A stretch of DNA of 34,389 nucleotides. Source: Nitrospirota bacterium (GTDB lineage Bacteria; Nitrospirota; Nitrospiria; Nitrospirales; UBA8639). Under the pieces are notes generated by a model. It did not search any database. It worked only from the letters and a program-made list of their open reading frames with translations, and was not told the DNA's origin. The stretch spans positions 1-34,389 of the forward strand of contig RFGT01000107.1 in NCBI GenBank assembly GCA_003696975.1, read 5' to 3'. How positions within the stretch are numbered: position 1 is the first letter of the stretch; each line of letters starts with the position of its first letter. A program made the position numbers and the translations under genes. Of the stretch, positions 169 to 28,530 are shown one piece after another.

Positions 169-1518
169 GTGGATTCTCTCTCAATATGGAAAAAAACCTT
201 GAATATTCTTGAAGATCAAGTTGGAAAAGAGGTTGTAGAGGAATGGTTTCGTCAAACACGGTTGGGAGAAATTCAAGGATCTGCTGTTAAAGTAATTGTA
301 CCTAATAAATATGTTGGAGAGTGGCTTGGGAGAAACTACCGAAAAGTTCTCATTGATGCTCTGAGGATGGCAAATGTTGTTCATGATAACGAGGGGGTGG
401 ATATCCTCTTTGTAACAGGAGAGAATGTCCAACAAAGAGAAGAGCTGTCCTCGATGAGGGAGAGAAATTTGACCCTTCCGGGAGGACGCATTCGGAGACA
501 GTTACCTAACCCTAAATATACCTTTGAAAACTTTGTCGTGGGAGCAAGCAATCAGTTTGCTCATGCAGCGAGTTTAGCTGTAGCTGAGGCCCCAGCTCAG
601 GCCTATAACCCATTCTTTATCTATGGAGGCGTTGGACTAGGAAAGACACATCTTTTGAATTCTATTGGAAATTTTGTGTTAAATCGCCAACAGGATCTAA
701 GGATTGCCTATGTTACCACTGAGCAATTCACGAATGAGGTCATTAACTCTATTCGCTATGACCGGATGCAGGATCTAAGACGGCGGTATCGGAGCATAGA
801 CATGCTTCTCATCGACGATATTCAGTTTTTGGCGGGGAAAGAGCGAACACAAGAGGAATTCTTCCATACATTCAATGACTTGTATGAGGCAAGGAAACAA
901 ATTGTCCTATCAAGTGATCGCTTTCCCAAAGAGATGCCTTCTATGGAAGAGCGCCTACGTTCGCGGTTTGAATGGGGCTTAATCGCTGACCTCCAACAAC
1001 CAGATATGGAGACACGCATTGCCATCCTTCGTAAGAAGTCAGAGGATGAGGGGATTGTTATAGGAGATGATGTGATTCAGTTGCTGGCAACACATCTCAA
1101 AAGCAATATCCGAGAACTTGAAGGAGCCCTCATCCGGCTTGGGGCTTATACCTCCCTCACCGGGCAACAGATTACCGTTGAGATGGCGAGAATGGTTCTC
1201 CGAGACCTATTGGGAGAAATAAAAAAGGTGATCACAGTGGAGGATATCCAACAGGTGGTGGCAACTCGCTTTCATGTTAAAGTGTCTGAGCTGAAATCAA
1301 AACGCCGGACTAAAACTTTAGTGTATCCTCGTCAGATCGCCATGTATCTCTCACGAGAGTTGACGGAGACTTCCTTTCCGGAGATCGGGAAACAGTTTGG
1401 AGACAAAGATCACACCACGATCATCCATGCTTGCAAACAGGTTGAAAAAAGTATGGAAAAAGACCCTACCCTTCGCGGGGTTATTCAAAGTCTCAAAGAT
1501 GAAATCACTAGAGCCTGA
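169..1518 (+). CDS. dnaA: Chromosomal replication initiator protein DnaA
   Basis: DnaA is the AAA+ ATPase that binds DnaA boxes, melts the origin and helps load the replicative helicase. The 449-aa length is normal. Domain I covers roughly residues 1-80, a short linker follows, and the AAA+ domain III starts near 115. The Walker A loop GGVGLGKTH has K159 and Walker B has D216-D217 (IDDIQF). The C-terminal DNA-binding domain IV carries the signature DHTTIIH beginning at D414. The start is GTG at 169, preceded by TGGAGG at 155-160 with 8-base spacing, so the start is well supported. DnaA boxes upstream suggest autoregulation. Base composition is clearly lower in GC than in genes further into the window. 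Confidence 0.98.
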   Translation: MDSLSIWKKTLNILEDQVGKEVVEEWFRQTRLGEIQGSAVKVIVPNKYVGEWLGRNYRKVLIDALRMANVVHDNEGVDILFVTGENVQQREELSSMRERNLTLPGGRIRRQLPNPKYTFENFVVGASNQFAHAASLAVAEAPAQAYNPFFIYGGVGLGKTHLLNSIGNFVLNRQQDLRIAYVTTEQFTNEVINSIRYDRMQDLRRRYRSIDMLLIDDIQFLAGKERTQEEFFHTFNDLYEARKQIVLSSDRFPKEMPSMEERLRSRFEWGLIADLQQPDMETRIAILRKKSEDEGIVIGDDVIQLLATHLKSNIRELEGALIRLGAYTSLTGQQITVEMARMVLRDLLGEIKKVITVEDIQQVVATRFHVKVSELKSKRRTKTLVYPRQIAMYLSRELTETSFPEIGKQFGDKDHTTIIHACKQVEKSMEKDPTLRGVIQSLKDEITRA

Positions 1519-1524
1519 CGATTC

Positions 1525-1550
1525 TGGTATAATAATAGAATTGCTATAAT
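1525..1550 (+). promoter_or_regulatory. Two tandem extended -10 elements before dnaN
   Basis: TGGTATAAT (1525-1533) and TGCTATAAT (1542-1550) both match the extended -10 pattern TGnTATAAT exactly. No good -35 is visible for either, which is tolerated in extended -10 promoters. The second would start RNA around 1556-1558, only a few bases before the dnaN ATG at 1561. I see no Shine-Dalgarno sequence there. dnaN may therefore be made from an almost leaderless transcript as well as from dnaA read-through. The motifs are seen; the transcription start is inferred. Confidence 0.5.
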
Positions 1551-1560
1551 CGCTTATCCT

Positions 1561-2688
1561 ATGAAAGTCACCGTTACAAGAGACGAGCTTCTCACTGCGT
1601 TACAGCGAGTTCAAGGGGTAGTAGAAAAACGCAATACTATGCCCATTCTCGCGAATATTCTCCTTGAAGCCAAATCAGAAGGGCTTGATATCCTTGCGAC
1701 TGATTTAGAGATTAGTCTCCGAGGCTTCTATAAGGCTACGGTAGATGAATGCGGAGCGGTGACATTTTCTGCACGTAAGTTGCTAGAGATTCTCAGAGAA
1801 ATCAAAGAGCCTGAGATTGTCCTTAGTGTCAGTGAGACTAATGTAGTCCATATTAAAGCAGGACGAAGTCAGTTTAAAGTCATGGGACTCCCTAGCCAGG
1901 ATTTCCCCGTACTTCCTGCTATCGATCGTGATGGCCTCATCCCTGTACCTGGGGCTGGGATCCTCGATCTTTTAAAAAAGACACTCTTTGCGGTAGGAGA
2001 TAATGACACACGGTATGTGTTGAATGGGCTATTTATTCTTGTCAGCCCACAGGGACAAGCAACTCAGATACGGTTTGTGGGAACGGATGGGCATCGGTTA
2101 GCCGTCGCTGAGCAAACAGTCCAGATTCCACGTGAACAGAGCCAGGCCCGGGAGATGAAAGTCATCATCCCTAAAAAGGCTGCTTATGAGATGAAACGGT
2201 TACTCGAAGAAGATGAGACTGAACCCCTTCTTGGGTTTACCAAAAACCTCTTAATCTTTCGAAAGAGTGGGTTAGTCCTTACCTCGCGACTTATTGAAGG
2301 AAATTATCCAAATTATCAACAAGTTATACCAAAAGATTCTCCTCAAAAAATTGCGGTTCAGCGAGAGGAGCTCGAAGGGGGACTCCGGAGAGTTTCTCTC
2401 CTTTCGCGGGATAAAACATATACTGTCAAACTCACCTTTTCCCGTGACCATATCTCCCTCTATGCCAGCCACCCTGATATTGGGGAAGCAACTGAAGAGA
2501 TTCCGGCATCTTTTCAAGGAGGAGATACGTTTTCAGCAGGGTTTAATGCGAAATATCTTCTCGATGTCCTAAACGTCCTGTCAGAAGACCAGGTGACTCT
2601 ACAAATGGAGTCCCCCCTTAGCCCTTGCTTAATCCGGGAAGGAGAAGCGACAGGGTTTAAAGCTGTGGTCATGCCTGTTAAAGTTTAA
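1561..2688 (+). CDS. dnaN: DNA polymerase III sliding clamp (beta subunit)
   Basis: This is the ring-shaped processivity clamp that tethers DNA polymerase III and other partners to DNA. At 375 aa it has the standard length for three repeated clamp domains. Recognisable family stretches include the N-terminal MKVTVTRDELL, the NTMPILANIL segment, GTDGHRLA in domain 2 and LIEGNYPNYQQVIP at the domain 2/3 junction. The C-terminal VMPVKV matches the usual clamp end. It follows dnaA by 42 bases, the standard order. The ATG lacks an evident ribosome-binding site and lies 10 bases after a TATAAT. recF, the common next gene, is absent. Codon use is AT-rich like dnaA. Confidence 0.97.
   Translation: MKVTVTRDELLTALQRVQGVVEKRNTMPILANILLEAKSEGLDILATDLEISLRGFYKATVDECGAVTFSARKLLEILREIKEPEIVLSVSETNVVHIKAGRSQFKVMGLPSQDFPVLPAIDRDGLIPVPGAGILDLLKKTLFAVGDNDTRYVLNGLFILVSPQGQATQIRFVGTDGHRLAVAEQTVQIPREQSQAREMKVIIPKKAAYEMKRLLEEDETEPLLGFTKNLLIFRKSGLVLTSRLIEGNYPNYQQVIPKDSPQKIAVQREELEGGLRRVSLLSRDKTYTVKLTFSRDHISLYASHPDIGEATEEIPASFQGGDTFSAGFNAKYLLDVLNVLSEDQVTLQMESPLSPCLIREGEATGFKAVVMPVKV
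2304..2332 (+). other. DnaA-box-like tandem 9-mers inside dnaN
   Basis: TTATCCAAA (2304-2312) is directly followed by TTATCAACA (2313-2321), the same word as the box at 122-130. A weaker TTATACCAA follows at 2324-2332. The first two each differ from TTATNCACA by one base; the third has two differences. They encode part of the conserved clamp stretch NYPNYQQVIP, which partly forces the sequence, so function is uncertain. Confidence 0.25.
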
Positions 2689-2771
2689 GAGCCTTCGACA
2701 CAGACAGAATAGCAGAACCAATCCGCCAGCTTTTGGTCTTATTGCAATATTTGTTTGGAAGCTGCTCATAA

Positions 2772-5270
<2,499 letters not shown>

Positions 5271-5303
5271 TTGCACACTCCTTGCTAACACAGGAATGAC
5301 ATC

Positions 5304-7835
5304 ATGCCCGTAGAAGAACGGCTTACCCAGGTTGCCATCGAAGATGAAATGCGTCTGTCCTACCTCGACTACGCCATGAGTGTCATTGTAGGGCGCGCGC
5401 TTCCCGACGTGCGAGATGGGCTCAAGCCTGTGCACCGGCGCATTTTGTATGGCATGAACCAGATGGGATTAACGTTCAACCGGGCCTATCGCAAATCCGC
5501 CAAGATCGTCGGCGAGATCATGGGAAACTATCATCCCCATGGAGATTCTGCCATCTATGACACCCTGGTTCGCATGGCCCAAGACTTCACCATGCGCTAT
5601 CCGTTGATTGATGGTCAGGGGAATTACGGATCGGTTGATGGGGATCCCCCGGCGGCGATGCGCTATACCGAGGCGAGACTCACCAAACTCGCTGGCGAAA
5701 TGTTGGCAGATATTGACAAGGAAACTGTGGACTTCATTCCCACCTATGACGAATCCGACGTTGAGCCGGTCGTCTTACCAGCCAAGGTTCCCAATCTCTT
5801 GATCAATGGGGCGGGAGGCATCGCTGTCGGGTATGCCACCAATATTCCCACGCACAATCTAGGCGAGGTGGTCACGGCACTGATCGAGTTACTTGACCAT
5901 CCTGACCTAACCATTGACGACCTGATGCACATCATCCCTGGTCCGGATTTTCCCACGGCTGGTTTCATCTATGGTACGCAAGGTATCAGAGAAGCCTATC
6001 ACACTGGACGAGGCCTGCTTATTGTCCGGGCTAAAGCCCATATCGAAACCGATGACCGAACGGAACGCGACCGAATCGTCGTGACCGAGATTCCTTATCA
6101 AGTCAATAAGGCCAAGCTGCTGGAAAAGATCGCCGAGTTGATTCAGGAAAAGCGGATTGAAGGGATCTTTGATCTTCGGGATGAGTCTGACCGGGAGGGG
6201 CTTCGGGTGGTCATCGAGCTGAAGAAGGGCGAGATTCCACAAATCATTCTCAATCAACTCTACAAACATACTCAATTGCAAATCACGTTTGGGGTCATTC
6301 TCTTGGCCCTGGTAAACAATCGTCCTGAAATTCTAAATCTGAAACAAATGCTCCAGGCCTTTCTGGACCATCGGCGAGAAGTTATTCGGCGCCGGACCGC
6401 CTTTGAACTCCGGAAAGCCGAAGAGCGTGCGCATGTGATTGCCGGGTTAAAAATTGCGCTGGAACACCTGGATGACGTCCTGACTCTGATCCGTCGAGCG
6501 GCTTCGCCGGATGAGGCCAAACTCAGCCTGGTTCACCAATATGCGCTCACGGAACCCCAAGCCACGGCTATCTTGGATATGCGATTGCAACGTCTCACGC
6601 AACTGGAGCAAGAAAAACTTCAGCAGGAATACCAGGAACTCTTGGATCGAATTGCCCATCTCACTTCACTATTAGGCTCGGAGGAGCTCATCCGCGAAGT
6701 GATCAAAGAAGAACTGAGAGAGGTAAAAGAGGCGTATCAGGACAATCGCCGCACACAAATCGTGCCGGAGGAAGCAGAAATCAATATCGAGGACCTTATT
6801 GCCGAGGAACAGGTGGCTGTGACGATTACGCATGCAGGGTATATCAAGCGGCAGCCAGTCTCCCAGTACCAGGCGCAGCGACGCGGCGGTAAGGGCAAGA
6901 TAGGGATGGGGGTCAAAGAGGAAGATGTGGTGGAGACCCTCTTTACGGCCTCCACGCATGATTTTCTCTTATTCTTTACAGACACAGGGCGAGTATATTG
7001 GCTCAAGGTCTATGAAATCCCTGAATCTAGTCGGACGAGCAAAGGGAAGGCGTTAGTGAATCTCCTACCCTTGAGCCCCGACGAGCGGGTCACGGCCACC
7101 TTGCCTGTGAAAGAGTTTCGTGAAGATTTGTATGTCGTGATGGCTACACGCCGGGGAGTTGTGAAGAAGACCCCCCTGTCTGCGTATAGCAATCCGCGGC
7201 AAGGTGGGATCATCGCCTTGACCTTAGATGATGGGGATCGCTTGGTCGGCGTAGAAATGACCAATGGATGCCATGAAATTCTCCTGGGGACGAAACAAGG
7301 TATCGTCATTCGCTTCTCGGAACAGGACGTGAGACCCATGGGGCGGACAGCTCGGGGAGTGAGAGGAATCACGCTTTCAGAAGGCAATGAGGTGATTGGC
7401 ATGACGACAATGACCCCAGACGCTACAACCTCTATTCTCACCGTCACCGAGAAAGGATTTGGCAAACGGACTCTGCTCCAGGAGTATCGCCTCCAAAGTC
7501 GAGGGGGGCGAGGCGTTATCAGCGTCAAGGTCACCGAGAGGAATGGGATGGCGGTATCCTTTCATCAGGTCCGCGATACCGATGAGGTCATGATCGTGAC
7601 CGCTGCCGGGAAAATTCTGCGTATGCGTATTGATGACCTCCGAGAAATCGGCCGTAATGCGCAGGGTGTTCGCCTCATTGATATGGAAGAGGCCGATCGA
7701 GTCGTCAGCGTGGCAAAACTGGCCGAATCAACTGACGATCGGTTGGAGGAGGAGCAGCCCCCGCAACAGTCGTGTGACGCTCTTGATGTTGATGACACTG
7801 AACTCCCTGCAGAGAATCCACCGATTCATGAATGA
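5304..7835 (+). CDS. gyrA: DNA gyrase subunit A
   Basis: GyrA is the DNA cleavage and rejoining subunit of gyrase. The catalytic tyrosine is Y121 in [10 protein letters not shown]. The quinolone-contact region [14 protein letters not shown] keeps Ser82 and Asp86, equivalent to the sensitive E. coli S83/D87. The C-terminal beta-pinwheel contains QRRGGKG, the GyrA box that separates gyrase from topoisomerase IV. An acidic tail of about 35 residues ends the 843-aa protein. An AGGA at 5292-5295 lies 8 bases before the ATG, and gyrB ends 33 bases upstream, so the two are probably co-transcribed and made in step. No parC/parE is seen in the window. Confidence 0.98.
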
Positions 7836-18909: not shown

Positions 18910-20883
18910 ATGTCTGTGCATGCCCACGAGTCCCAGCGGGATACCACCGCATCCCTGATTAGAGTGACCTTGCCTGACGGCACGACCCATGTGGTGCCAT
19001 CAGGGACCACCGCCAAAGAACTCTTGCGGAAGTATACCAGGCAGAATGCCCACGAGATCTTGGCTGTGAAGGTGAACGGGCAGCCTAAAGATCTCAATAC
19101 CTCGCTTACTGAGGATGTATCCGTTGAACCAATCACCTTTGCCTCTCCCGAGGGAAAAGAGATTTATCGTCATAGCAGTGCGCATATTATGGCGCAAGCT
19201 GTGAAAGAGGTCTTCCCTTCGGCGCTTTTGACGATTGGCCCTCCAATTGATGAAGGGTTTTACTATGATTTCGACTTTGAGCGGCCCTTTACGCCGGAAG
19301 ATTTGGAAAAAATTGAACTGCGAGCGCGGGAGATCATTAAAGCCAATTATCCCATTGAACGGCTAGAGATGTCGAAAGATGAGGCAATACAGTTTTTCCA
19401 TGACCGGGGCGAGCGGTTCAAAGCCGAGATTATCCGACAAATCGAAGACCCTCAGGTCTCGCTGTATCGCCAGGGAGACTTCATCGATCTCTGCCGGGGA
19501 CCGCATGTGGAATCGACCGGGCGGATCAAAGCCTTGAAGCTGCTCTCCAGTGCCGGGGCGTACTGGCGGGGTGATGAGCGAAATCCCATGCTTCAGCGCA
19601 TCTATGGCACGTCCTTCCCTTCTCAGGAAGAACTCGATGCGTATTTAACAAAACTCGAGGAAATCAAACGGCGGGATCACCGAAAGGTAGGGAAAGAGCT
19701 TGACCTGTTTAGTATCCAAGACGAAACCGGACCGGGGCTTATCTTATGGCATCCAAAGGGGGCATTGATTCGGTTGCAGATTGAGAACTTTTGGCGGGAG
19801 CAGCACCTTACGCAGGGATATGAATTGGTCTACTCCCCTCATGTGGCTCGTCTGGAATTGTGGAAAACCAGCGGGCATGTGGACTACTACCGGGACAATA
19901 TGTTTGCCCCAATGAGCGTAGAGTCCGCGCATTACCAACTGAAACCTATGAACTGTCCCTTCCATATTCTGGTGTATAAGAGCCACCTTCGCAGTTATCG
20001 CGATTTACCCATCCGATACGCGGAATTGGGCACGGTGTATCGTTACGAACGGTCAGGGGTGCTTCATGGGCTTTTGCGGGTACGAGGGTTCACGCAAGAT
20101 GATGCCCATATTTTTTGCCGGCCCGACCAAATTGAAGGAGAAGTTAAAGCGGTGTTGACGCTGACGATGCATGTGCTGCACCGATTTGGATTCACGGACT
20201 GCGAGCTCTACCTTTCAACCCGCCCTGAGCACGCTGTCGGGTCGCAGGAAAAATGGGAGCAGGCCACTGCGGCGTTGGAGGCAGCCTTGCAAGGTGGTGG
20301 GTTTGCGTATACGATCGATCCAGGGGAAGGGGTCTTCTATGGACCCAAGATCGATCTGAAAATCAAGGATGCTCTCGGGCGAGCGTGGCAATGTTCCACC
20401 GTCCAAGTGGATTTCAACAATCCTGAGCGGTTTGGGTTATGCTACATTGGCGAGGATGGAAAGGAGCATCAGCCTATCATGATTCATCGGGCATTGCTGG
20501 GGTCCATTGAGCGGTTCTTTGGGATCTTGGTCGAGCATTATGGCGGGGCCTTCCCCGTGTGGCTGGCTCCGGTACAAGTGCAGGTGTTGCCCATTACCGA
20601 CAAGCAACATGCCTATGGCCAAACGGTTGTTCACCATCTGCGCCGAGCCGGGTTGCGAGCGGAACTCGACGCACGCAATGAGAAGATCGGCTTGAAAATT
20701 CGTGAGGCTGAAAAGGCCAAGATTCCGTTTATGGCAGTGGTTGGCGAACGGGAGGCTCAAAGCGCTACGGTATCAGTTCGGGAGCGAGGAGGGGTCAATA
20801 AAGGGGTTATGACCGTTTCCGAAGTAGTGGATCTCGTTCGGAGCTGCATGCCCTCAGATGAACTGGCGAGTGTGCCCCAGTAG
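18910..20883 (+). CDS. thrS: Threonyl-tRNA synthetase
   Basis: This class II synthetase charges tRNA-Thr. At 657 aa it has the full bacterial layout: an N-terminal TGS domain (about 1-75), the editing/SAD domain starting HSSAHIMAQAVKEVFP, the catalytic core and the C-terminal anticodon-binding domain. The zinc ligands are C349 (MNCPFHI), H400 (DDAHIF) and H526 (MIHRALLGS). Class II motif 3 lies around GSIERFFGIL. GAGGTG at 18896-18901, eight bases before the ATG, is a strong ribosome-binding site. infC follows 11 bases after the stop, starting the thrS-infC-rpmI-rplT cluster common in bacteria. An upstream hairpin may regulate translation. Confidence 0.98.
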   Translation: MSVHAHESQRDTTASLIRVTLPDGTTHVVPSGTTAKELLRKYTRQNAHEILAVKVNGQPKDLNTSLTEDVSVEPITFASPEGKEIYRHSSAHIMAQAVKEVFPSALLTIGPPIDEGFYYDFDFERPFTPEDLEKIELRAREIIKANYPIERLEMSKDEAIQFFHDRGERFKAEIIRQIEDPQVSLYRQGDFIDLCRGPHVESTGRIKALKLLSSAGAYWRGDERNPMLQRIYGTSFPSQEELDAYLTKLEEIKRRDHRKVGKELDLFSIQDETGPGLILWHPKGALIRLQIENFWREQHLTQGYELVYSPHVARLELWKTSGHVDYYRDNMFAPMSVESAHYQLKPMNCPFHILVYKSHLRSYRDLPIRYAELGTVYRYERSGVLHGLLRVRGFTQDDAHIFCRPDQIEGEVKAVLTLTMHVLHRFGFTDCELYLSTRPEHAVGSQEKWEQATAALEAALQGGGFAYTIDPGEGVFYGPKIDLKIKDALGRAWQCSTVQVDFNNPERFGLCYIGEDGKEHQPIMIHRALLGSIERFFGILVEHYGGAFPVWLAPVQVQVLPITDKQHAYGQTVVHHLRRAGLRAELDARNEKIGLKIREAEKAKIPFMAVVGEREAQSATVSVRERGGVNKGVMTVSEVVDLVRSCMPSDELASVPQ

Positions 20884-20894
20884 AGCCTTAGAGC

Positions 20895-21416
20895 ATGACG
20901 CGACCTCTGCTGACAAAATATCGAGTGAACCATATGATTCGGGCACCTGAAGTCCGAGTCATTGGACCAGAGGGTGAGCAATTGGGCATTATGAAGAGCC
21001 ATGAGGCCCTCAAGCAGGCACAAGAGATGGGGTATGACCTCGTTGAGGTTTCACCCAATTCCGTACCTCCGGTCTGCCGAATTATGGATTATGGGAAGTT
21101 CAAGTATGAGCAGAGCAAAAAGGAGCACAAGATTCGGCAGCATCAAAAGTCTACACATGTGAAGGAGATCAAACTGAGGCCGCGAACGGACAAACACGAT
21201 CTTGAGACCAAGGTCCGACAGATTCGAAACTTTCTCGCAGACGGGAACAAGACGAAGGTCACCGTGATGTTTCGGGGGCGAGAAATGGCCAATCAAGAAC
21301 TTGGACGCGCGGCGATTAATAAAGTGATCGAGGAGATCAAGGAAGTGGGGGTGATCGAGATGGAACCCAAGATGGAAGGCCGCAATTTGTACATGATTGT
21401 AGCTCCCAAAAGTTAA
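20895..21416 (+). CDS. infC: Translation initiation factor IF-3
   Basis: IF-3 binds the 30S subunit, keeps subunits apart and checks the start codon. The 173-aa protein has the N-terminal domain signature [20 protein letters not shown] and the C-terminal domain with [18 protein letters not shown] lysine-rich linker joins them. The start here is ATG rather than the rare AUU known in enterobacteria, so start-codon-based autoregulation is not indicated. It follows thrS by 11 bases with a weak ribosome-binding site, which suggests coupled translation, and is followed 13 bases later by rpmI. Confidence 0.98.
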
Positions 21417-21694: not shown

Positions 21695-22066
21695 ATGCCT
21701 CGGGTAAAAGGGGGTCCACAAACGCGACGCAGACGAAAGAAGCGGCTCAAGCTCGCGAAGGGACAATACGGCGCGAGAAGTCGGCTGTTTCGGACAGCCA
21801 CAGAAGCTGTGGACAAAGGCTTGGCATATGCCTATGCAGGACGGCGGCAACGCAAGCGAGATTTTCGCCGACTTTGGATTGCACGGATCAATGCCGGGGT
21901 GCGAGCCCAGGGTTTGACCTATAGCCGATTCATGCATGCATTGCGGGAAGCCAATATAGTACTGGATCGGAAAGTTCTGTCTGATATGGCCGTCCGAGAT
22001 CCTCAGGGGTTCACGTATCTCGTGGAATGCGCAAAGGGCGGAGGCGTGAAGTCTGCTACGGGATAA
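21695..22066 (+). CDS. rplT: 50S ribosomal protein L20
   Basis: L20 is an early-assembly protein of the large subunit and a known repressor of its own operon in several bacteria. The 123-aa sequence starts [16 protein letters not shown] and contains [17 protein letters not shown] and [15 protein letters not shown], all family features. GGGAGG precedes the ATG at a good distance. The 61-base gap after rpmI is long enough for a control structure, but I cannot define one. Its last 11 bases overlap the convergent pheT. Confidence 0.98.
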
Positions 22067-22071
22067 CGCCT
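22042..22071. repeat. Inverted repeat spanning the rplT/pheT convergent stops
   Basis: AGGCGT (22042-22047) and ACGCCT (22066-22071) are complementary around 18 bases that include the pheT stop and most of the rplT stop. There is no T tract on either side, so it is at best a weak bidirectional transcription barrier. Confidence 0.25.
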
Positions 22072-23783
22072 AGTCCTTCCTGTGCCCACCTTTGACATAA
22101 GGTATCAAGATTCAACTCAAATACGGCAACAGGCTTTTCCACGTGCCAAGCCTCGAGTACGGCGGGGTGCAATTCGCCAATCAGCCCGATCTGGCAGGTA
22201 TTCCAGATAATACGTCCAGCGCGTCCCTCAAGAAAGGAGGGATGAGGGATAGGCTCCAGGATATAGGGTGTCAAGAGATAGTACAGCAGCATATCCAAGG
22301 TTGTGTGCACTTCCGAGAAATTGGCTGCTGGATGAGCCACAAGCGCGCCGAGCTTTGTGAGAGTCAGCGATCCATTTTCCTGTGTAGAGTCTGGAATGGC
22401 TACTTCTCCTACTTCAAACAGGCGGTGAGGATAGAACGATCGAGATGACGCACTTTCTACCCGAAGCAGAGATGGAATGATCCAAGAGCGGAGACAAGAG
22501 TAATTGTGCGACATCACGTTTTCAATCTCCAGCACGGCGGTTTCTGGGGTATCAGGGAGGTTCATGCGGCTGAGCAAATCCTCGCGGGACATCAGAATGT
22601 TGGAAAATATTTCTTGAAAGCCCGCCCCGATCATCAAATCCCGAACATGGTCGGATAACCGTTCCACGGACGACAGCCCCCCCACGGTAAATTGGGCAGG
22701 CATGAGAGGCGTGAAGGAATTGTAGCCCCGACTGATGGCTACATCCTCTGCCACATCCACCTGATGCATAACGTCCTGGCGATATGGTGGAAGGCGCACA
22801 GCGAGAGTATGCCGGCTGGCCTTAACGTCATATCCATAGGCGGCGAGTGCCTGCTGAATGGCTTCGGCACCCAAAGGGACACCCAGTGCGGCCTCAATGG
22901 CGTGCACCGAGATCCGCTGAATCTGGTTGATGGTGAAGGGTGTACGAAGAGTCCGGCCCCATTCGGTCGTCCAAGGATACACGATGTCGATGGGTTCAAT
23001 GGTTGCTCCCCGATCAGCTAAATTGACCGCGAAGATATTCAAAGTCAATAACACCATCCGCAGGTCCGTGCCCGTCACTTCCACCATGAGCTCGGTATCA
23101 CCTGGTTTGACCTCTCCAAGATCTTGACTGTTGATAATCGGCGGAAACGAGAGTACCTGCCCTTCTTGATCCCAGAGCAGGGGGAGCGAGGTGTGACCGG
23201 CAAGAATCTCTCCATATTCCTGGCCCTTGGGATGAATAGACAGAATTTCGCCGAGGGTGAGTTTTTCCGTAAATCCGAGAGGAACAAAACGGACCTCATC
23301 GGGTTTGACTAGCCCGTAGGTTACCGGAAAACGAATTGCCGCCAAACGATACAACCCGATCGAGACCGTCCAGCGCTTGTGGCCGTAGAGGTCCGCGAGT
23401 TTTTCTTGAGCCTGGATCAACTGGGTCAAACTGTCCTCGGTGATTGTGTACCCTCTCGCGCAGCAGGCCACGACGAATGGACGCACGGTTTCGAGCCCGG
23501 GCATGACGCGAATCCGCCGCCTGATCCGAGGCTTTTGAGAGAAGAACGAGTAGGTGACAGGTTGCTGTTGAAGGGCGGCCCGAATTTGACGGGCGATCCC
23601 TTCAACACACCAAAGATCTGGACGATTGCTGTCCTGAAGCTCAATGCGAAGTTCGCCGGTGGCTGGAACGTGATCCTTGATTTCACCTTTCACCAGGGGA
23701 AGCCACGCCTCCAGTTCATGGAGAGCGATGGATCGCCCGAGTAAGTGCTCAAGGTCATGATGGTAAATCGAAATCGTGGGCAT
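22056..23783 (-). CDS. pheT: Phenylalanyl-tRNA synthetase beta subunit, archaeal/eukaryotic type
   Basis: This is the beta subunit of the (alpha-beta)2 enzyme that charges tRNA-Phe. At 575 aa it is far shorter than the usual bacterial PheT (about 800 aa). It starts directly with an archaeal-type N-terminus ([20 protein letters not shown], then [18 protein letters not shown]) and lacks the bacterial EMAP-like tRNA-binding and C-terminal anticodon-binding domains. The B5 region is around residues 285-355. [15 protein letters not shown] and [14 protein letters not shown] are typical of archaeal beta subunits. An AGGTG lies five bases before the ATG. The gene follows pheS by 15 bases in the same frame and converges on rplT. 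Horizontal transfer is inferred from the architecture. Confidence 0.95.
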
Positions 23784-23794
23784 CTTCGCACCTG

Positions 23795-23812
23795 GGCGTC
23801 AAAAAAGACGCC
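23795..23812 (-). promoter_or_regulatory. Hairpin enclosing the pheS stop codon at the pheS-pheT junction
   Basis: On the coding (minus) strand GGCGTC, six T residues and GACGCC form a six-base-pair GC-rich stem. The pheS UGA begins at the last T of the loop and runs into the stem. The hairpin ends 11 bases before the pheT ATG, next to its AGGTG. A role in the coupling or ratio of the two subunits is possible but unproven. Confidence 0.45.
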
Positions 23813-25373
23813 TCCGCATTGAACGAATTTTTTCCAGATCGGCGGTGAATAAATCCCGAATATCGTGCAATCCCAGAGCGATCATGGCCATGCGATCCAA
23901 CCCTAACCCCCATGCGATGACGGGAACTGTCACCCCCAGGGGATGGGTCACTTCTGGTCGGAACAATCCAGCCCCTCCTAATTCCATCCATCCCAATTGT
24001 GGGTGCCGGACATGCAGCTCCACAGAGGGTTCTGTAAATGGGAAGTAGGCTGGCAAGAAACGACTTTCTTGAGCATGAGCCATTTCCCTGGCGAATAGGG
24101 TCAACAGCCCCAATAGTGTTCGAAAGGTAATATCTTCTCCCAACACAATCCCTTCGACCTGGAAGAAATCCGTGGCATGTGTGGCATCCACTTGATCGTA
24201 GCGGAAGCACCGGGCAATTGAAAAATATTTTCCGGGGATGGCTGGATGATGGGCAAGAGTTCGAGCGGAAACTGCTGTCCCTTGGCTTCGTAAGATCAGC
24301 CGTCTGGCTCGCTCCCGGTCATACGTATAGCGCCACCCCGTTGATCCCGTGCCCCCCCCATGTTCATGCGCGGCAGCTACCTGGGAAAGAAACGGCTCGG
24401 GGATATGCCCGGCATGCGAAGGATATTTCACAAAATAGACATCATGAATAGCGCGGGCCGGGTGGAATTGAGGCATGAACAAGGCATCCATATCCCAAAA
24501 TTCGGTCTCCACCAAGGGCCCCCGCATTTCCTGAAACCCCATGCTTATTAGCTTGAACTTCACTTGGTCTAGGAATTCCCGGTATGGATGGCGGCGGCCC
24601 ACGGCCGTGCGAGGCGGGCGGAGTTGAATCGTGTACTTGCGAAACCGCTTGGTCCGCCAGGCGCCATCTTTGAGAAGCTCTGGCGTGAGTTGGGAAATTT
24701 CTTCTTCCCCTACCCCGGGCTGACAGGCCACTGCCACGGAACGGCCTAAGGGCGTCAGGCGATATTCTCGGTGAATGCGTTCTTCGATGCGAAAGGGCTC
24801 CTGAGGGTTACCTCGCTTCACCGCATACTGGCGAGCCACGGCTTGCAGGACAGAGGGAAGCGTGAGAAGGTCTTGAGCTTGATCGCGCACACGTTCAAGC
24901 AAGGTCTCAAGCGCCTCAGCGGTGGGGCTTGGTTGCCCGGTGCGCTCGATAACCCCTCCAGCACCCAACCGAATCGCACCCTCCTTTTTTAAGGCGCCGA
25001 TAGCCCGACTGATTTCCGTCGGCTCAAATTGGCCGGCGTCAAGAAGGACGGGGATGGTCAGGTGCCGTCCTGCCTGTTCCGCTTCTTCCGCCATATGCAG
25101 AATCCATCGGGGAGGCGACCCGCGGGTCAGGTACTCTTTGCCGCGATCAGTGAGAGAAACCCAGAAGGTGACGGTTTCCGACTTGATTTCCAAGAGTTGT
25201 TTGGCCACAAGCCATCCCACCGCCATGCTGAGTTGGGAAGAATCAAGCTGGCACCGTTCGTGTAGATGTTGGTCAGAGAGCACGTGATCCGAGGGAGAGA
25301 ACGCTGCAAGGACTTGGATCTCCAGCGGGTGCAAGCTTTCAGAGAGAGTAGAACGATCCATGGCTCTAGACAT
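23799..25373 (-). CDS. pheS: Phenylalanyl-tRNA synthetase alpha subunit, archaeal/eukaryotic type
   Basis: This is the catalytic class II subunit of PheRS. At 524 aa it is much longer than bacterial PheS (about 340 aa). It begins with winged-helix-like segments (about residues 10-160) rather than the bacterial coiled coil. The catalytic core starts at H262 (HPYREF) and continues MGFQEMRGPLVETEFWDMD, HPARAIHDVYF, then RCFRYDQVDATHATDFFQVEG-like motif 2 and motif 3 GLGLDRMAMIALGLHDIRD. The combination MRGPLVETEFWD plus HPAR is characteristic of archaeal/eukaryotic alpha subunits. The ATG overlaps the rpe stop by eight bases; a second in-frame ATG is at 25361. It is the fifth gene of the larC-to-pheT run. 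Confidence 0.95.
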   Translation of the reverse strand: MSRAMDRSTLSESLHPLEIQVLAAFSPSDHVLSDQHLHERCQLDSSQLSMAVGWLVAKQLLEIKSETVTFWVSLTDRGKEYLTRGSPPRWILHMAEEAEQAGRHLTIPVLLDAGQFEPTEISRAIGALKKEGAIRLGAGGVIERTGQPSPTAEALETLLERVRDQAQDLLTLPSVLQAVARQYAVKRGNPQEPFRIEERIHREYRLTPLGRSVAVACQPGVGEEEISQLTPELLKDGAWRTKRFRKYTIQLRPPRTAVGRRHPYREFLDQVKFKLISMGFQEMRGPLVETEFWDMDALFMPQFHPARAIHDVYFVKYPSHAGHIPEPFLSQVAAAHEHGGGTGSTGWRYTYDRERARRLILRSQGTAVSARTLAHHPAIPGKYFSIARCFRYDQVDATHATDFFQVEGIVLGEDITFRTLLGLLTLFAREMAHAQESRFLPAYFPFTEPSVELHVRHPQLGWMELGGAGLFRPEVTHPLGVTVPVIAWGLGLDRMAMIALGLHDIRDLFTADLEKIRSMRRRLF

Positions 25374-26046
25374 GAATGGTTTGTGCCGCAGCTCGTAAAG
25401 CGTGAATGGTGGCCGTGTAATCCTGGCTGTGAAAGATGGCCGAACCTGCTACGAGAACCTGAGCTCCGGCCTGCACGACGGCTGAGGCATTGTCGACCTT
25501 GATCCCTCCATCGACTTCGAGCAAGGCTCGACTCTGCACGTGGAGCAACATCTGGCGCATCCGGCGGATTCTATCGAGACTTGCCGGGAGAAAATGTTGG
25601 CCTCCGAATCCAGGATTCACAGACATGATTAATACCAAATCCACCTCGGGAAGGATCTCTTCAAGTGCTGAAAGGGGAGTGGCTGGATTTAAGGTCACCC
25701 CGGCCAGCACACCACATTCTTTGATGGCCTGCACAGTGCGATGCAGATGAGGGCAAGCCTCGACATGAACGGTAAGATAGTTTGCCCCAGCTTGGGCAAA
25801 AGCTGTCAGAAACACCTCGGGATTGGTCATCATGAGATGGACGTCCAAGGGAAGGCGTGTAACTTTGCGCAAGGCCTCTACAATTGGCGGCCCTGCGGTC
25901 AAGTTGGGAACAAAATGCCCATCCATTACATCCACATGAATCATATCGGCTCCGGCGGCCTCGACTCGCGACACTTCCTCGGCCAATCGGCCAAAATCGG
26001 CAGACAGGATTGAGGGGGCGATCAGGACAGCCGACGAGGAGCTCAT
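25366..26046 (-). CDS. rpe: Ribulose-phosphate 3-epimerase
   Basis: Rpe interconverts ribulose 5-phosphate and xylulose 5-phosphate in the pentose phosphate and Calvin cycles. The 226-aa TIM barrel shows the family signatures: IAPSILSADFGRL, MIHVDVMDGHFVPNLT, PLDVHLMM, MSVNPGFGGQHF and LEVDGGIKVDNA. The Asp, His and Glu/Asp residues that bind the metal and act as acid/base are within these stretches. GGAG lies about seven bases before the ATG. The start overlaps the rsmB stop (ATGA, 26043-26046) and the stop overlaps pheS, so translation through this run looks coupled. Confidence 0.97.
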   Translation of the reverse strand: MSSSSAVLIAPSILSADFGRLAEEVSRVEAAGADMIHVDVMDGHFVPNLTAGPPIVEALRKVTRLPLDVHLMMTNPEVFLTAFAQAGANYLTVHVEACPHLHRTVQAIKECGVLAGVTLNPATPLSALEEILPEVDLVLIMSVNPGFGGQHFLPASLDRIRRMRQMLLHVQSRALLEVDGGIKVDNASAVVQAGAQVLVAGSAIFHSQDYTATIHALRAAAQTIHV

Positions 26047-27446
26047 AAGACACTCCGTTTTTTTCTCAACCGAGCTGCAAAAAAGCCATCCATCTCAAAT
26101 GGATTGCCTCCTGTCCAGAAATCTCCATCTTGGGAGAGAAGAACGTGACCAGCAGCGGGAAGCCAAGATTCGGCAGATTCGCGGACATATTCGGGGTGGC
26201 GCCGGCAGAAGCGAGCCACCACCTCAGTAGTTTCTTCGGGTTCTGTTGAGCAGGCACTATAGACCAACACTCCACCTGGTCTCAAGAGGTCCCCAACGTG
26301 ATCCAGAATGGTCAGTTGGTTCTCGGCATGGCGGGCAAGCTGGTCCGGACCTTTGAACCATTTGGCTTCTGGATGGCGCCGCAGAATCCCTAGGCCGGAA
26401 CAAGGGACATCGATCAAGATTCGGTCGAAGGCGCGAGGGAGTACCTCAGGCCAAGGCTTTTGTGACGGAACCGTCAGCAGATCGACCTGCACGGGGTGAA
26501 CGATCCGCACCCCCAACCGGTGGCAATTGTCCTGCAATCTCTTCAGGCGAGGCTGACTGTGATCCAGTGCGAAGATAACCCCTTGATTCTGCATGAGCGC
26601 GGCAAGGTGTGTGGTCTTCCCTCCTGGAGCTGCACAGGCATCTAAGACGAGGTGTCCAGGCTGGACGTCCAACAGAAGGGGCACGAGTTGAGCGGCTTCG
26701 TCCTCGACATAGCAAAGCCCTTCTTGTAAGGCAGAGAGCTGGCTAAGGGGGCCGCATTTCTCCAGATAGAGCCCAACCGGACTCACCGCAGTGCTGACGG
26801 GATGATATCCGTCTCGAGAAAGCCGAGCTTCCAGCGCCTGGCGCGACAGGCGCAGTGTGTTGGTCCGGAGCGTGATCGGGGGGATCTGCAATGTCTGCCG
26901 ACAAAGGCGTTCCGCTAAGTCTAGGCCGTGATTCCTGATCCACCGCTCCGCAAGCCAAGAGGGACAGGAATAACGGATAGAAAGAGCCCTACACACATCG
27001 TCTTCAAGTGAGGGCCAAGATGGGATGGGGCTACGCAGAAGCTGGCGAAGGACCCCGTTGACAAATCCGGTCCAATCCCGTCCGAGCTCTCCTTTGACCA
27101 AGTTCACAGATTCATTGATAGCCGCTGAGGCAGGAATTTTGCTGAGATACAGGAGTTGATAAGCCCCTAAACGAAGGGCGTAGCGGACGGCGAGAGGAAG
27201 GCGATGGACCGGGCGATGGCTTACTTGATCGAGACGCCAATCGAGAGTTTCTCGATGCCGGAGTACCCCATAGATCAATTCGAAAGCTAAGGCCGAATCG
27301 CAAGGGCTGAGAGGCGAATGACGGGTGACCCGGTCAAAGGCCTCATCGGCAAAGCACAGACGTTGCTCGATGAGGATCAGAACCCGCAAAGCCACCCGGC
27401 GAGCTGAGCATATGGAAGCACGGGAGGTATCAGAAGAGGAGATCAT
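26043..27446 (-). CDS. rsmB: 16S rRNA (cytosine-967-C5)-methyltransferase RsmB
   Basis: RsmB methylates C967 of 16S rRNA using S-adenosylmethionine. The N-terminal NusB-like RNA-binding domain (about residues 10-150) includes FELIYGVLRHRETLDWRL and INESVNLVKG. The methyltransferase domain has the SAM loop DACAAPGGKTTHLA and the two cysteines of the m5C family, in DVPCSGLGILRRHPE and YSACSTEPEE. The frame is open to 27569, but I start at ATG 27446 (467 aa), because the longer form would run 98 bases into pdxA and its extra residues are unlike the family. No clear ribosome-binding site precedes 27446. rpe overlaps its stop by four bases. Confidence 0.95.
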   Translation of the reverse strand: MISSSDTSRASICSARRVALRVLILIEQRLCFADEAFDRVTRHSPLSPCDSALAFELIYGVLRHRETLDWRLDQVSHRPVHRLPLAVRYALRLGAYQLLYLSKIPASAAINESVNLVKGELGRDWTGFVNGVLRQLLRSPIPSWPSLEDDVCRALSIRYSCPSWLAERWIRNHGLDLAERLCRQTLQIPPITLRTNTLRLSRQALEARLSRDGYHPVSTAVSPVGLYLEKCGPLSQLSALQEGLCYVEDEAAQLVPLLLDVQPGHLVLDACAAPGGKTTHLAALMQNQGVIFALDHSQPRLKRLQDNCHRLGVRIVHPVQVDLLTVPSQKPWPEVLPRAFDRILIDVPCSGLGILRRHPEAKWFKGPDQLARHAENQLTILDHVGDLLRPGGVLVYSACSTEPEETTEVVARFCRRHPEYVRESAESWLPAAGHVLLSQDGDFWTGGNPFEMDGFFAARLRKKRSVL

Positions 27447-27471
27447 GACCAACAATTCAAGGATAAGGAGT

Positions 27472-28530
27472 TCATGCCCGGGTAGCAAGCGTGGCTGCGA
27501 GGCGAATGGCTTCCAGAAGACTCTGGGGATCGGCCGTGCCTTGGCCCACAATGTCATAGGCCGTACCATGGTCCACCGACGTTCGGATAAAGGGTAAGCC
27601 CACGGTCACGTTCACGCTGCGGCCGAAGGCCACGGTTTTCAGGGGAATCAGGCCCTGGTCATGGTACATGGCCACCAGTCCGTCGAACTGGCCGCGGACC
27701 GCCGCTCCAAAGAGCGTATCGGCTGGCCATGGTCCACTCGCCGAGATACCGGCTCGCTGCGCCTTGCGCACCGCTGGGGCGATCACCCGACGTTCTTCCT
27801 GACCAAACAACCCGTCTTCTCCCGCATGGGGGTTCAAAGCGGCCACCCCGATGCGAGGTGCAGCCACCCGAAACAGCTTCTGAAGAGCCATATGGGCCAA
27901 ATAAATGGTGCGGAGCACACGGGCTTGGGTCAGGAGGGTGGGAAGGGCGCTTAGAGCCACGTGGGTGGTCGCAAAAACAATCTTCAGGGGGCCTCCCACG
28001 AGCATCATGCCTGCGGTTTTGGTGTGAGTAAGCGCTGCTAGCAGTTCCGTGTGCCCGGGGTAATCATAGCCTGCCAAATGAAGGGCTTTCTTATTAATAG
28101 GAGCGGTCACTATTGCTGCTACTTGTCCTTGTTGGGCCAACTGGACCGCGGTGCGAATATAAGCTACTGAAGCCGCGCCAGGGCCCGCTTGGGCCTTTCC
28201 CTGGCGAAATGGACCTAGCGGTTGACCGAGAGGATCGAGCAGGAGAATCTTTGAACGCGACCATGATGACTCATCGGGCTCGGGTGGGCTGGACAGAGGG
28301 AGTACCTTCACAGGAAGGTGCAACTGCTCAAGGGTTCGCTGCATGACATCAATTGATCCAATCACAAGCGGCCGGCAGACTCGCCAAACCGCTTGGATGG
28401 CCAACGCCTTGGCGATGATCTCGGGCCCAATGCCTGCGGGATCACCCATCGTGATGGCAAGAATGGGCCGGGTTGCATGCAGCGACGAGGCCCGGCGTCG
28501 AATAAGCGACTTTGGCGAACGGTGGCTCAT
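27472..28530 (-). CDS. pdxA: 4-hydroxythreonine-4-phosphate dehydrogenase PdxA
   Basis: PdxA oxidises 4-hydroxythreonine 4-phosphate in the DXP-dependent route to pyridoxal 5'-phosphate (vitamin B6). The 352-aa sequence has the N-terminal ITMGDPAGIGPEI, TAPINKKALH, YPGHTELLA with a metal-binding histidine, ALNPHAGEDGLFG, and MYHDQGLIPLK with another metal ligand. GLPFIRTSVDHGTAYDIVG near the end is a family hallmark. The first ~20 residues are rich in arginine and precede the conserved domain. The start ATG is four bases after the larC stop, and rsmB begins 25 bases downstream, within one probable operon. Confidence 0.97.
   Translation of the reverse strand: MSHRSPKSLIRRRASSLHATRPILAITMGDPAGIGPEIIAKALAIQAVWRVCRPLVIGSIDVMQRTLEQLHLPVKVLPLSSPPEPDESSWSRSKILLLDPLGQPLGPFRQGKAQAGPGAASVAYIRTAVQLAQQGQVAAIVTAPINKKALHLAGYDYPGHTELLAALTHTKTAGMMLVGGPLKIVFATTHVALSALPTLLTQARVLRTIYLAHMALQKLFRVAAPRIGVAALNPHAGEDGLFGQEERRVIAPAVRKAQRAGISASGPWPADTLFGAAVRGQFDGLVAMYHDQGLIPLKTVAFGRSVNVTVGLPFIRTSVDHGTAYDIVGQGTADPQSLLEAIRLAATLATRA

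Follow-up and report, generated by a model that had tools for sequence, protein, structure and literature searches.

Phenylalanyl-tRNA synthetase (PheRS) of the archaeal type is known in bacteria from the spirochaetes. In Spirochaeta, Borrelia and Treponema the alpha subunit has 513-528 aa and the beta subunit 514-573 aa, the bacterial form is absent, and the spirochaete copies were placed near Thermococcales in a study in which Nitrospira and Leptospirillum are not mentioned (Andam and Gogarten 2011, PMC3191353). A comparable situation is found in bacteria of the Candidate Phyla Radiation (CPR), which have archaeal-type TyrRS and TrpRS together with tRNAs of archaeal identity (PMC5370408). 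Here we describe an archaeal-type pheS-pheT pair on contig RFGT01000107.1 of a Nitrospirota bacterium (assembly GCA_003696975.1; lineage Nitrospiria, Nitrospirales, UBA8639). The whole stretch analysed, 34,389 nucleotides long, is referred to below as the window.

It is very probable that the sole PheRS of this organism is an archaeal-type enzyme that was taken up by an ancestor of the Nitrospiria and close lineages, with loss of the bacterial pheST genes, reuse of their chromosomal slot and adaptation of the enzyme to the resident tRNA. An earlier note, made from the sequence alone, had suggested that the native pheST was lost and replaced in this genome; this is supported by the search for further copies, the trees of both subunits and the conserved slot beside rplT, with the refinement that the replacement is not local to one genome but extends through its class and to several lineages nearby. 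No description of an archaeal-type PheRS replacement in Nitrospirota was found in the open-access literature, subscription papers lying outside that search. Beyond the spirochaete precedent, the present analysis shows that the archaeal type extends through a whole class of Nitrospirota, that its copies share one clade with those of other bacteria, that the pair usually lies beside rplT and that the tRNA has stayed bacterial at position 20.

An archaeal-type PheRS as the sole copy

Comparison with curated families confirms that, by sequence, PheS and PheT of the window are an archaeal/eukaryotic-type (type 2) PheRS. Residues 13-521 of PheS align to NF003210 (cut-off 350 bits) and residues 1-562 of PheT to TIGR00471 (pheT_arch, cut-off 283 bits), both with scores above the cut-off (Table 1) and with E-values that rule out chance similarity to these families. 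A bacterial-type enzyme would have a beta subunit of about 800 aa scoring over the 403-bit cut-off of TIGR00472 (pheT_bact), whereas the window PheT reaches 132 bits, over part of the C-terminal half of that model. The non-bacterial layout that had been read from the two sequences is thus borne out, as is the absence from the beta subunit of the bacterial tRNA-binding and C-terminal anticodon-binding domains: a Pfam scan found neither tRNA_bind (B2) nor FDX-ACB (B8) in the 575 residues of PheT, and found B5 and the catalytic-like module (CLM).

Residues 51-560 of PheT align to nearly all of the human beta subunit, and the solved chains closest to the window subunits are from human, Plasmodium and Pyrococcus horikoshii, together with 8s8b, which we take to be fungal, the structure record naming no organism. 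The predicted structure of PheT (predicted local distance difference test, pLDDT, 90.6) superposes on the P. horikoshii B1-B5 fragment 2cxi_A with a template modelling (TM) score of 0.95 on the target and a root-mean-square deviation of 1.7. That of PheS is middling (pLDDT 79.5, predicted TM score 0.48); its N-terminal part lies mostly at pLDDT 85-96, with a confident helix/strand pattern over residues 11-180, and the Pfam winged-helix matches there are weak and under cut-off. The top Foldseek match of the PheS model is the full-length human alpha subunit (3l4g_C), with a high global deviation and unsure domain placement. In the alignment to 2cxi_A, Ser212 and Asn218 of the window PheT fall on P. 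horikoshii Ser211 and Asn217, editing residues that are invariant in 69 of the 69 sequences of the beta alignment; Leu202 is kept in the window PheT. Asn217 stands in for the bacterial histidine at the editing site (PMC3275996).

The host genome is a metagenome-assembled genome (MAG) of 2.77 Mb in 273 contigs, 95.1% complete. The search for a second copy that the earlier note had proposed returned a single PheS in this genome (profile PF01409) and no bacterial PheT over the TIGR00472 cut-off. A second, weak TIGR00472 match spans model positions 43-124 only and is probably the tRNA_bind domain of another protein. Bacterial PheT over the cut-off was likewise absent from the complete chromosome of N. 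moscoviensis and from 15 other named carriers. PheS and PheT would be the only PheRS of the cell, presumably working as an alpha2-beta2 enzyme that makes Phe-tRNA-Phe, and Tyr-tRNA-Phe may be cleared by the B3/B4 editing site of PheT.

Distribution, slot and phylogeny

Among 296 Nitrospirota genomes, 162 have a PheS above the archaeal cut-off and 119 a PheT above the bacterial one, the rest having partial or missing matches; when the two tables were matched by family and E-value, none of the 296 was in both. The archaeal type is found in the window's class (families f1-f11, barring fragmentary matches), all scorable genomes of which have it, and in families f12, f13, f16, f19, f20 and f37. Named carriers include Nitrospira moscoviensis, Manganitrophus GAC4, Leptospirillum (f20) and, in the window's own family, MH1_Bin19. 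The bacterial type is found in f14, f15, f17, f18, f21-f36, f38 and f39, where a few single genomes have partial matches only. In many Nitrospirota families (f15, f21, f26 and others) the bacterial-type PheT matches its model only from about position 156, in frames of some 690-710 aa from which the N-terminal tRNA-binding part seems to be missing; in f14 and f17 it is full length. Outside the phylum, 20 of 120 sampled Spirochaetota genomes have the archaeal type. Plasmid and phage collections yielded bacterial-type PheS only, with no match covering 80%, and no relative of the pair was found in viral contigs. One mixed contig set was gathered with an artificial query of alternating fungal and Leptospirillum-like blocks, which entered no tree.

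Related classes keep the bacterial pheST in the slot beside rplT. In the fetched loci that hold all three genes, which are not a random sample and represent some genomes twice, 51 archaeal-type pairs are convergent to rplT with pheT nearest, 17 bacterial-type pairs lie downstream of rplT in the same direction, and two archaeal-type pairs (both f37) follow rplT codirectionally, that is, in the bacterial orientation. The simplest reading is that the archaeal pair replaced pheST in its old slot and that an inversion took place in the main lineage.

Trees were built for the PheS catalytic domain, for PheT and for both concatenated; the archaea sampled were Aenigmatarchaeota for both subunits and one Pyrococcus PheT fragment, and several rows have deviant composition. 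In the PheS tree, with bacterial PheS as outgroup, the branch separating the window's type from bacterial PheRS has a support of 100. The bacterial copies of the archaeal type all form one clade (99 for PheS and 100 for PheT by the Shimodaira-Hasegawa-like approximate likelihood ratio test, 100/100 concatenated), and the three trees agree in nesting it within an archaeal grade. Its members are Nitrospirota, Spirochaetota, Latescibacterota, Fermentibacterota and single MAGs of other phyla, whose labels (Gemmatimonadota, Armatimonadetes, Deltaproteobacteria) may be wrong. In the concatenated tree the spirochaetes are a clade of their own (100/100), the Nitrospirota without Leptospirillum are another (100/98), and the window lies within the Nitrospirota, not nested among spirochaete sequences. 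The earlier note had proposed trees of both subunits and had pointed to a similar replacement in spirochaetes; the window does fall inside the archaeal/spirochaete clade, and the parallel is more than an analogy, as spirochaete PheRS belongs to the same bacterial clade.

This single clade would be an artefact of missing donors if several phyla had each acquired their PheRS independently from related archaea, an alternative that we consider unlikely but worth serious attention. The few archaea available leave room for it, and one aenigmatarchaeal sequence (L159) stands just outside the bacterial clade, so close archaeal relatives exist. Against it stand the support for the clade in all three trees and the approximately unbiased (AU) test, which rejects a grouping of P. 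horikoshii with spirochaete PheT (p=0.0003, under limited sampling) and with Nitrospirota PheT (p=7e-7).

The history within the phylum is less simple than one uptake followed by descent. In the RpoB tree 20 archaeal-type carriers form one clade (99), f37 is sister to a large bacterial-type group (99) and f16 lies elsewhere, outside the main archaeal-type clade; a single clade of all carriers is rejected (AU, p=0.0013). Since the carriers are not one RpoB clade, transfer of PheRS within Nitrospirota is likely, a provisional conclusion given that RpoB is a single gene. Several points weigh against the history proposed above: the RpoB tree needs at least three changes of type in the phylum, so that one acquisition in one ancestor is insufficient for all carriers; the PheRS trees do not fix the position of Leptospirillum, the AU test not rejecting its union with the other Nitrospirota (p=0.43); and archaeal sampling is thin, the exclusive monophyly of the bacterial copies holding only against the archaea sampled.

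Alternatively, Nitrospirota could have had the archaeal-type pair from the start, with bacterial pheST regained by those lineages that now carry it (Thermodesulfovibrionia-like and others). The RpoB placement of f16 and f37 is in keeping with this, as is the bacterial PheT of many such families, which, unlike that of f14 and f17, matches its model only from about position 156. However, in the concatenated PheRS tree f16 and f37 pair as sisters within the Nitrospirota clade (100/100), which fits later transfer within the phylum, and the bacterial pheST stands in the order rplT-pheS-pheT, described in the earlier note as usual for bacteria. An ancestral pair thus appears improbable.

RpoB itself shows some irregularities in these genomes. 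In the Leptospirillum family f20 (G010, G019) its open frame is about 1725 aa and the model match is split around 219-272, which suggests a large insertion of several hundred residues. In the complete genome of Manganitrophus GAC4, rpoB (G298:C1:853983-857960) was matched in four pieces, probably reflecting frameshifts from long-read assembly.

Partner tRNA-Phe and the proposed replacement

The determinants by which PheRS recognises its tRNA include U20 in bacteria and G20 in archaea and yeast (PMC9976931), G20 being a property of the partner tRNA and not a defining trait of the enzyme family. Of the 37 archaeal-type Nitrospirota tabulated, 27 have U at position 20 of tRNA-Phe, 10 have C and none has G. 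All 21 bacterial-type Nitrospirota have U there, as do 8 archaeal-type carriers from other phyla; the 10 Aenigmatarchaeota genomes in which a tRNA-Phe was matched have G. The genomes counted are related to one another, and the numbers do not stand for independent events. That the recipient tRNA-Phe keeps U20 or C20 argues that the enzyme has probably adapted to the bacterial tRNA, and not the tRNA to the enzyme.

C20 was seen only in archaeal-type carriers. The tRNA-Phe of Nitrospirales, which was found by DNA search, has anticodon-stem pairs that differ from the pattern used elsewhere: the stem reads CAGCC/GGCTG, with inverted pairs, and several of the genomes have C20, the stem in other Nitrospirota being mostly GAGGC/GCCTC or similar. 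C20 and the inverted pairs would fit a relaxed constraint in Nitrospirales, without proving it.

On a small contig of the window's MAG (G000:C52:1-5317) lie DrmA and DrmB (DISARM) and a gene for a NERD helicase, and at its end stands a second tRNA-Phe (GAGGACTGAAAATCCTC stem) that differs from the family type, which is found on C216. The contig may be a contaminant, or else a defence island that brings its own tRNA.

In the replacement proposed here, the class Nitrospiria and its close relatives would descend from an ancestor that acquired the pair and lost the bacterial pheST, and the new pair would have come to occupy the old slot. The pair was probably drawn from archaeal-type PheRS that was already being passed among bacteria, because the Nitrospirota, Spirochaetota, Latescibacterota and other copies form one clade. 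The enzyme probably became adapted to a bacterial tRNA-Phe with U20 or C20. A broader scenario is plausible but tentative: one inter-domain transfer would have given rise to a bacterialised PheRS without a need for G20, which spread between phyla and repeatedly displaced pheST, in Nitrospirota in the slot beside rplT, the tRNA-Phe of Nitrospirales then drifting to C20 and inverted stem pairs once freed of the bacterial enzyme.

It is highly improbable that the pair is accessory or moonlighting, with phenylalanylation performed by another, unrecognised protein, as its catalytic and editing motifs are conserved, no other PheS-family gene in the genome is over threshold, and the pair is universal in the class; nothing was found that speaks in favour of such a role. 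Although the window comes from a MAG of many contigs, contamination or misassembly, with the pair derived from an archaeon or spirochaete in the sample, is refuted by independent genomes and may be practically disregarded: the same pair and gene order recur in N. moscoviensis and in genomes of the family that are closed or consist of few contigs, and the rplT and rpe genes on either side match those of the class.

Through the replacement, an enzyme essential for translation would have passed from one domain of life to another and become fixed in the class to which the nitrite oxidiser Nitrospira belongs. The type of PheRS may serve as a rare genomic marker for ordering Nitrospirota lineages, and the findings point to a broader exchange of which the spirochaete case would be one branch.

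The locus and its counterparts in known systems

The coordinates, lengths and minus-strand orientation given for the two genes in the earlier note hold (Table 1), and the gene map agrees that the pair ends a minus-strand run, larC-pdxA-rsmB-rpe-pheS-pheT, and is convergent with rplT, the ends of pheT and rplT overlapping by 11 bases. With dnaA, dnaN, gyrB and gyrA at its left end (169-7835), the window is probably close to the origin of replication; the pheS-pheT locus is about 22 kb from dnaA.

Table 1. Positions of pheS, pheT, their domains and neighbouring genes in the window.
Feature	Position	Strand	Basis
pheS, archaeal/eukaryotic-type PheRS alpha, 524 aa	23799..25373	minus	NF003210, 560 bits; trees
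PheS N-terminal extension (about residues 1-215), predicted helix/strand winged-helix-like domains	24729..25373	minus	predicted structure
PheS class II catalytic domain, PF01409	23820..24635	minus	Pfam profile match
pheT, archaeal/eukaryotic-type PheRS beta, 575 aa, without bacterial B2 and B8	22056..23783	minus	TIGR00471, 458 bits; predicted structure
PheT B3/B4 editing region (about residues 87-245)	23049..23525	minus	alignment to P. horikoshii 2cxi_A
PheT B5 domain, PF03484	22722..22913	minus	Pfam
PheT CLM, PF17759	22107..22703	minus	Pfam
rplT, convergent neighbour; marks the slot of bacterial pheST in related classes	21695..22066	plus	
infC, in the conserved thrS-infC-rplT block	20895..21416	plus	
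thrS, in the conserved thrS-infC-rplT block	18910..20883	plus	
rpe, directly upstream of pheS with an 8-base overlap; neighbour kept across much of the class	25366..26046	minus	
rsmB, upstream of rpe, conserved neighbour	26043..27569	minus	

The window pair resembles spirochaete PheRS in that both subunits are of the archaeal type, the bacterial form is absent and the two belong to the same bacterial clade; the Nitrospirota carriers differ in having the pair beside rplT. In contrast to the published placement of the spirochaete copies (PMC3191353), spirochaete PheT is not paired with P. horikoshii once Nitrospirota and others are included, within the limited sampling of the AU test given above. 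With archaeal PheRS (P. horikoshii 2cxi, Aenigmatarchaeota) the window enzyme shares its domain layout, the B1-B5 fold and the editing residues Ser211 and Asn217, but its host is bacterial and its partner tRNA-Phe has U20 or C20 instead of G20. Eukaryotic cytosolic PheRS (FARSA/FARSB, 3l4g) has the same architecture, the human alpha subunit being 37% identical over the aligned part, but forms a separate long branch in all trees. As with the TyrRS and TrpRS of CPR bacteria, an archaeal-type synthetase is found in a bacterium; unlike the tRNAs of those bacteria, the tRNA-Phe that accompanies the window-type enzyme stays bacterial at position 20.

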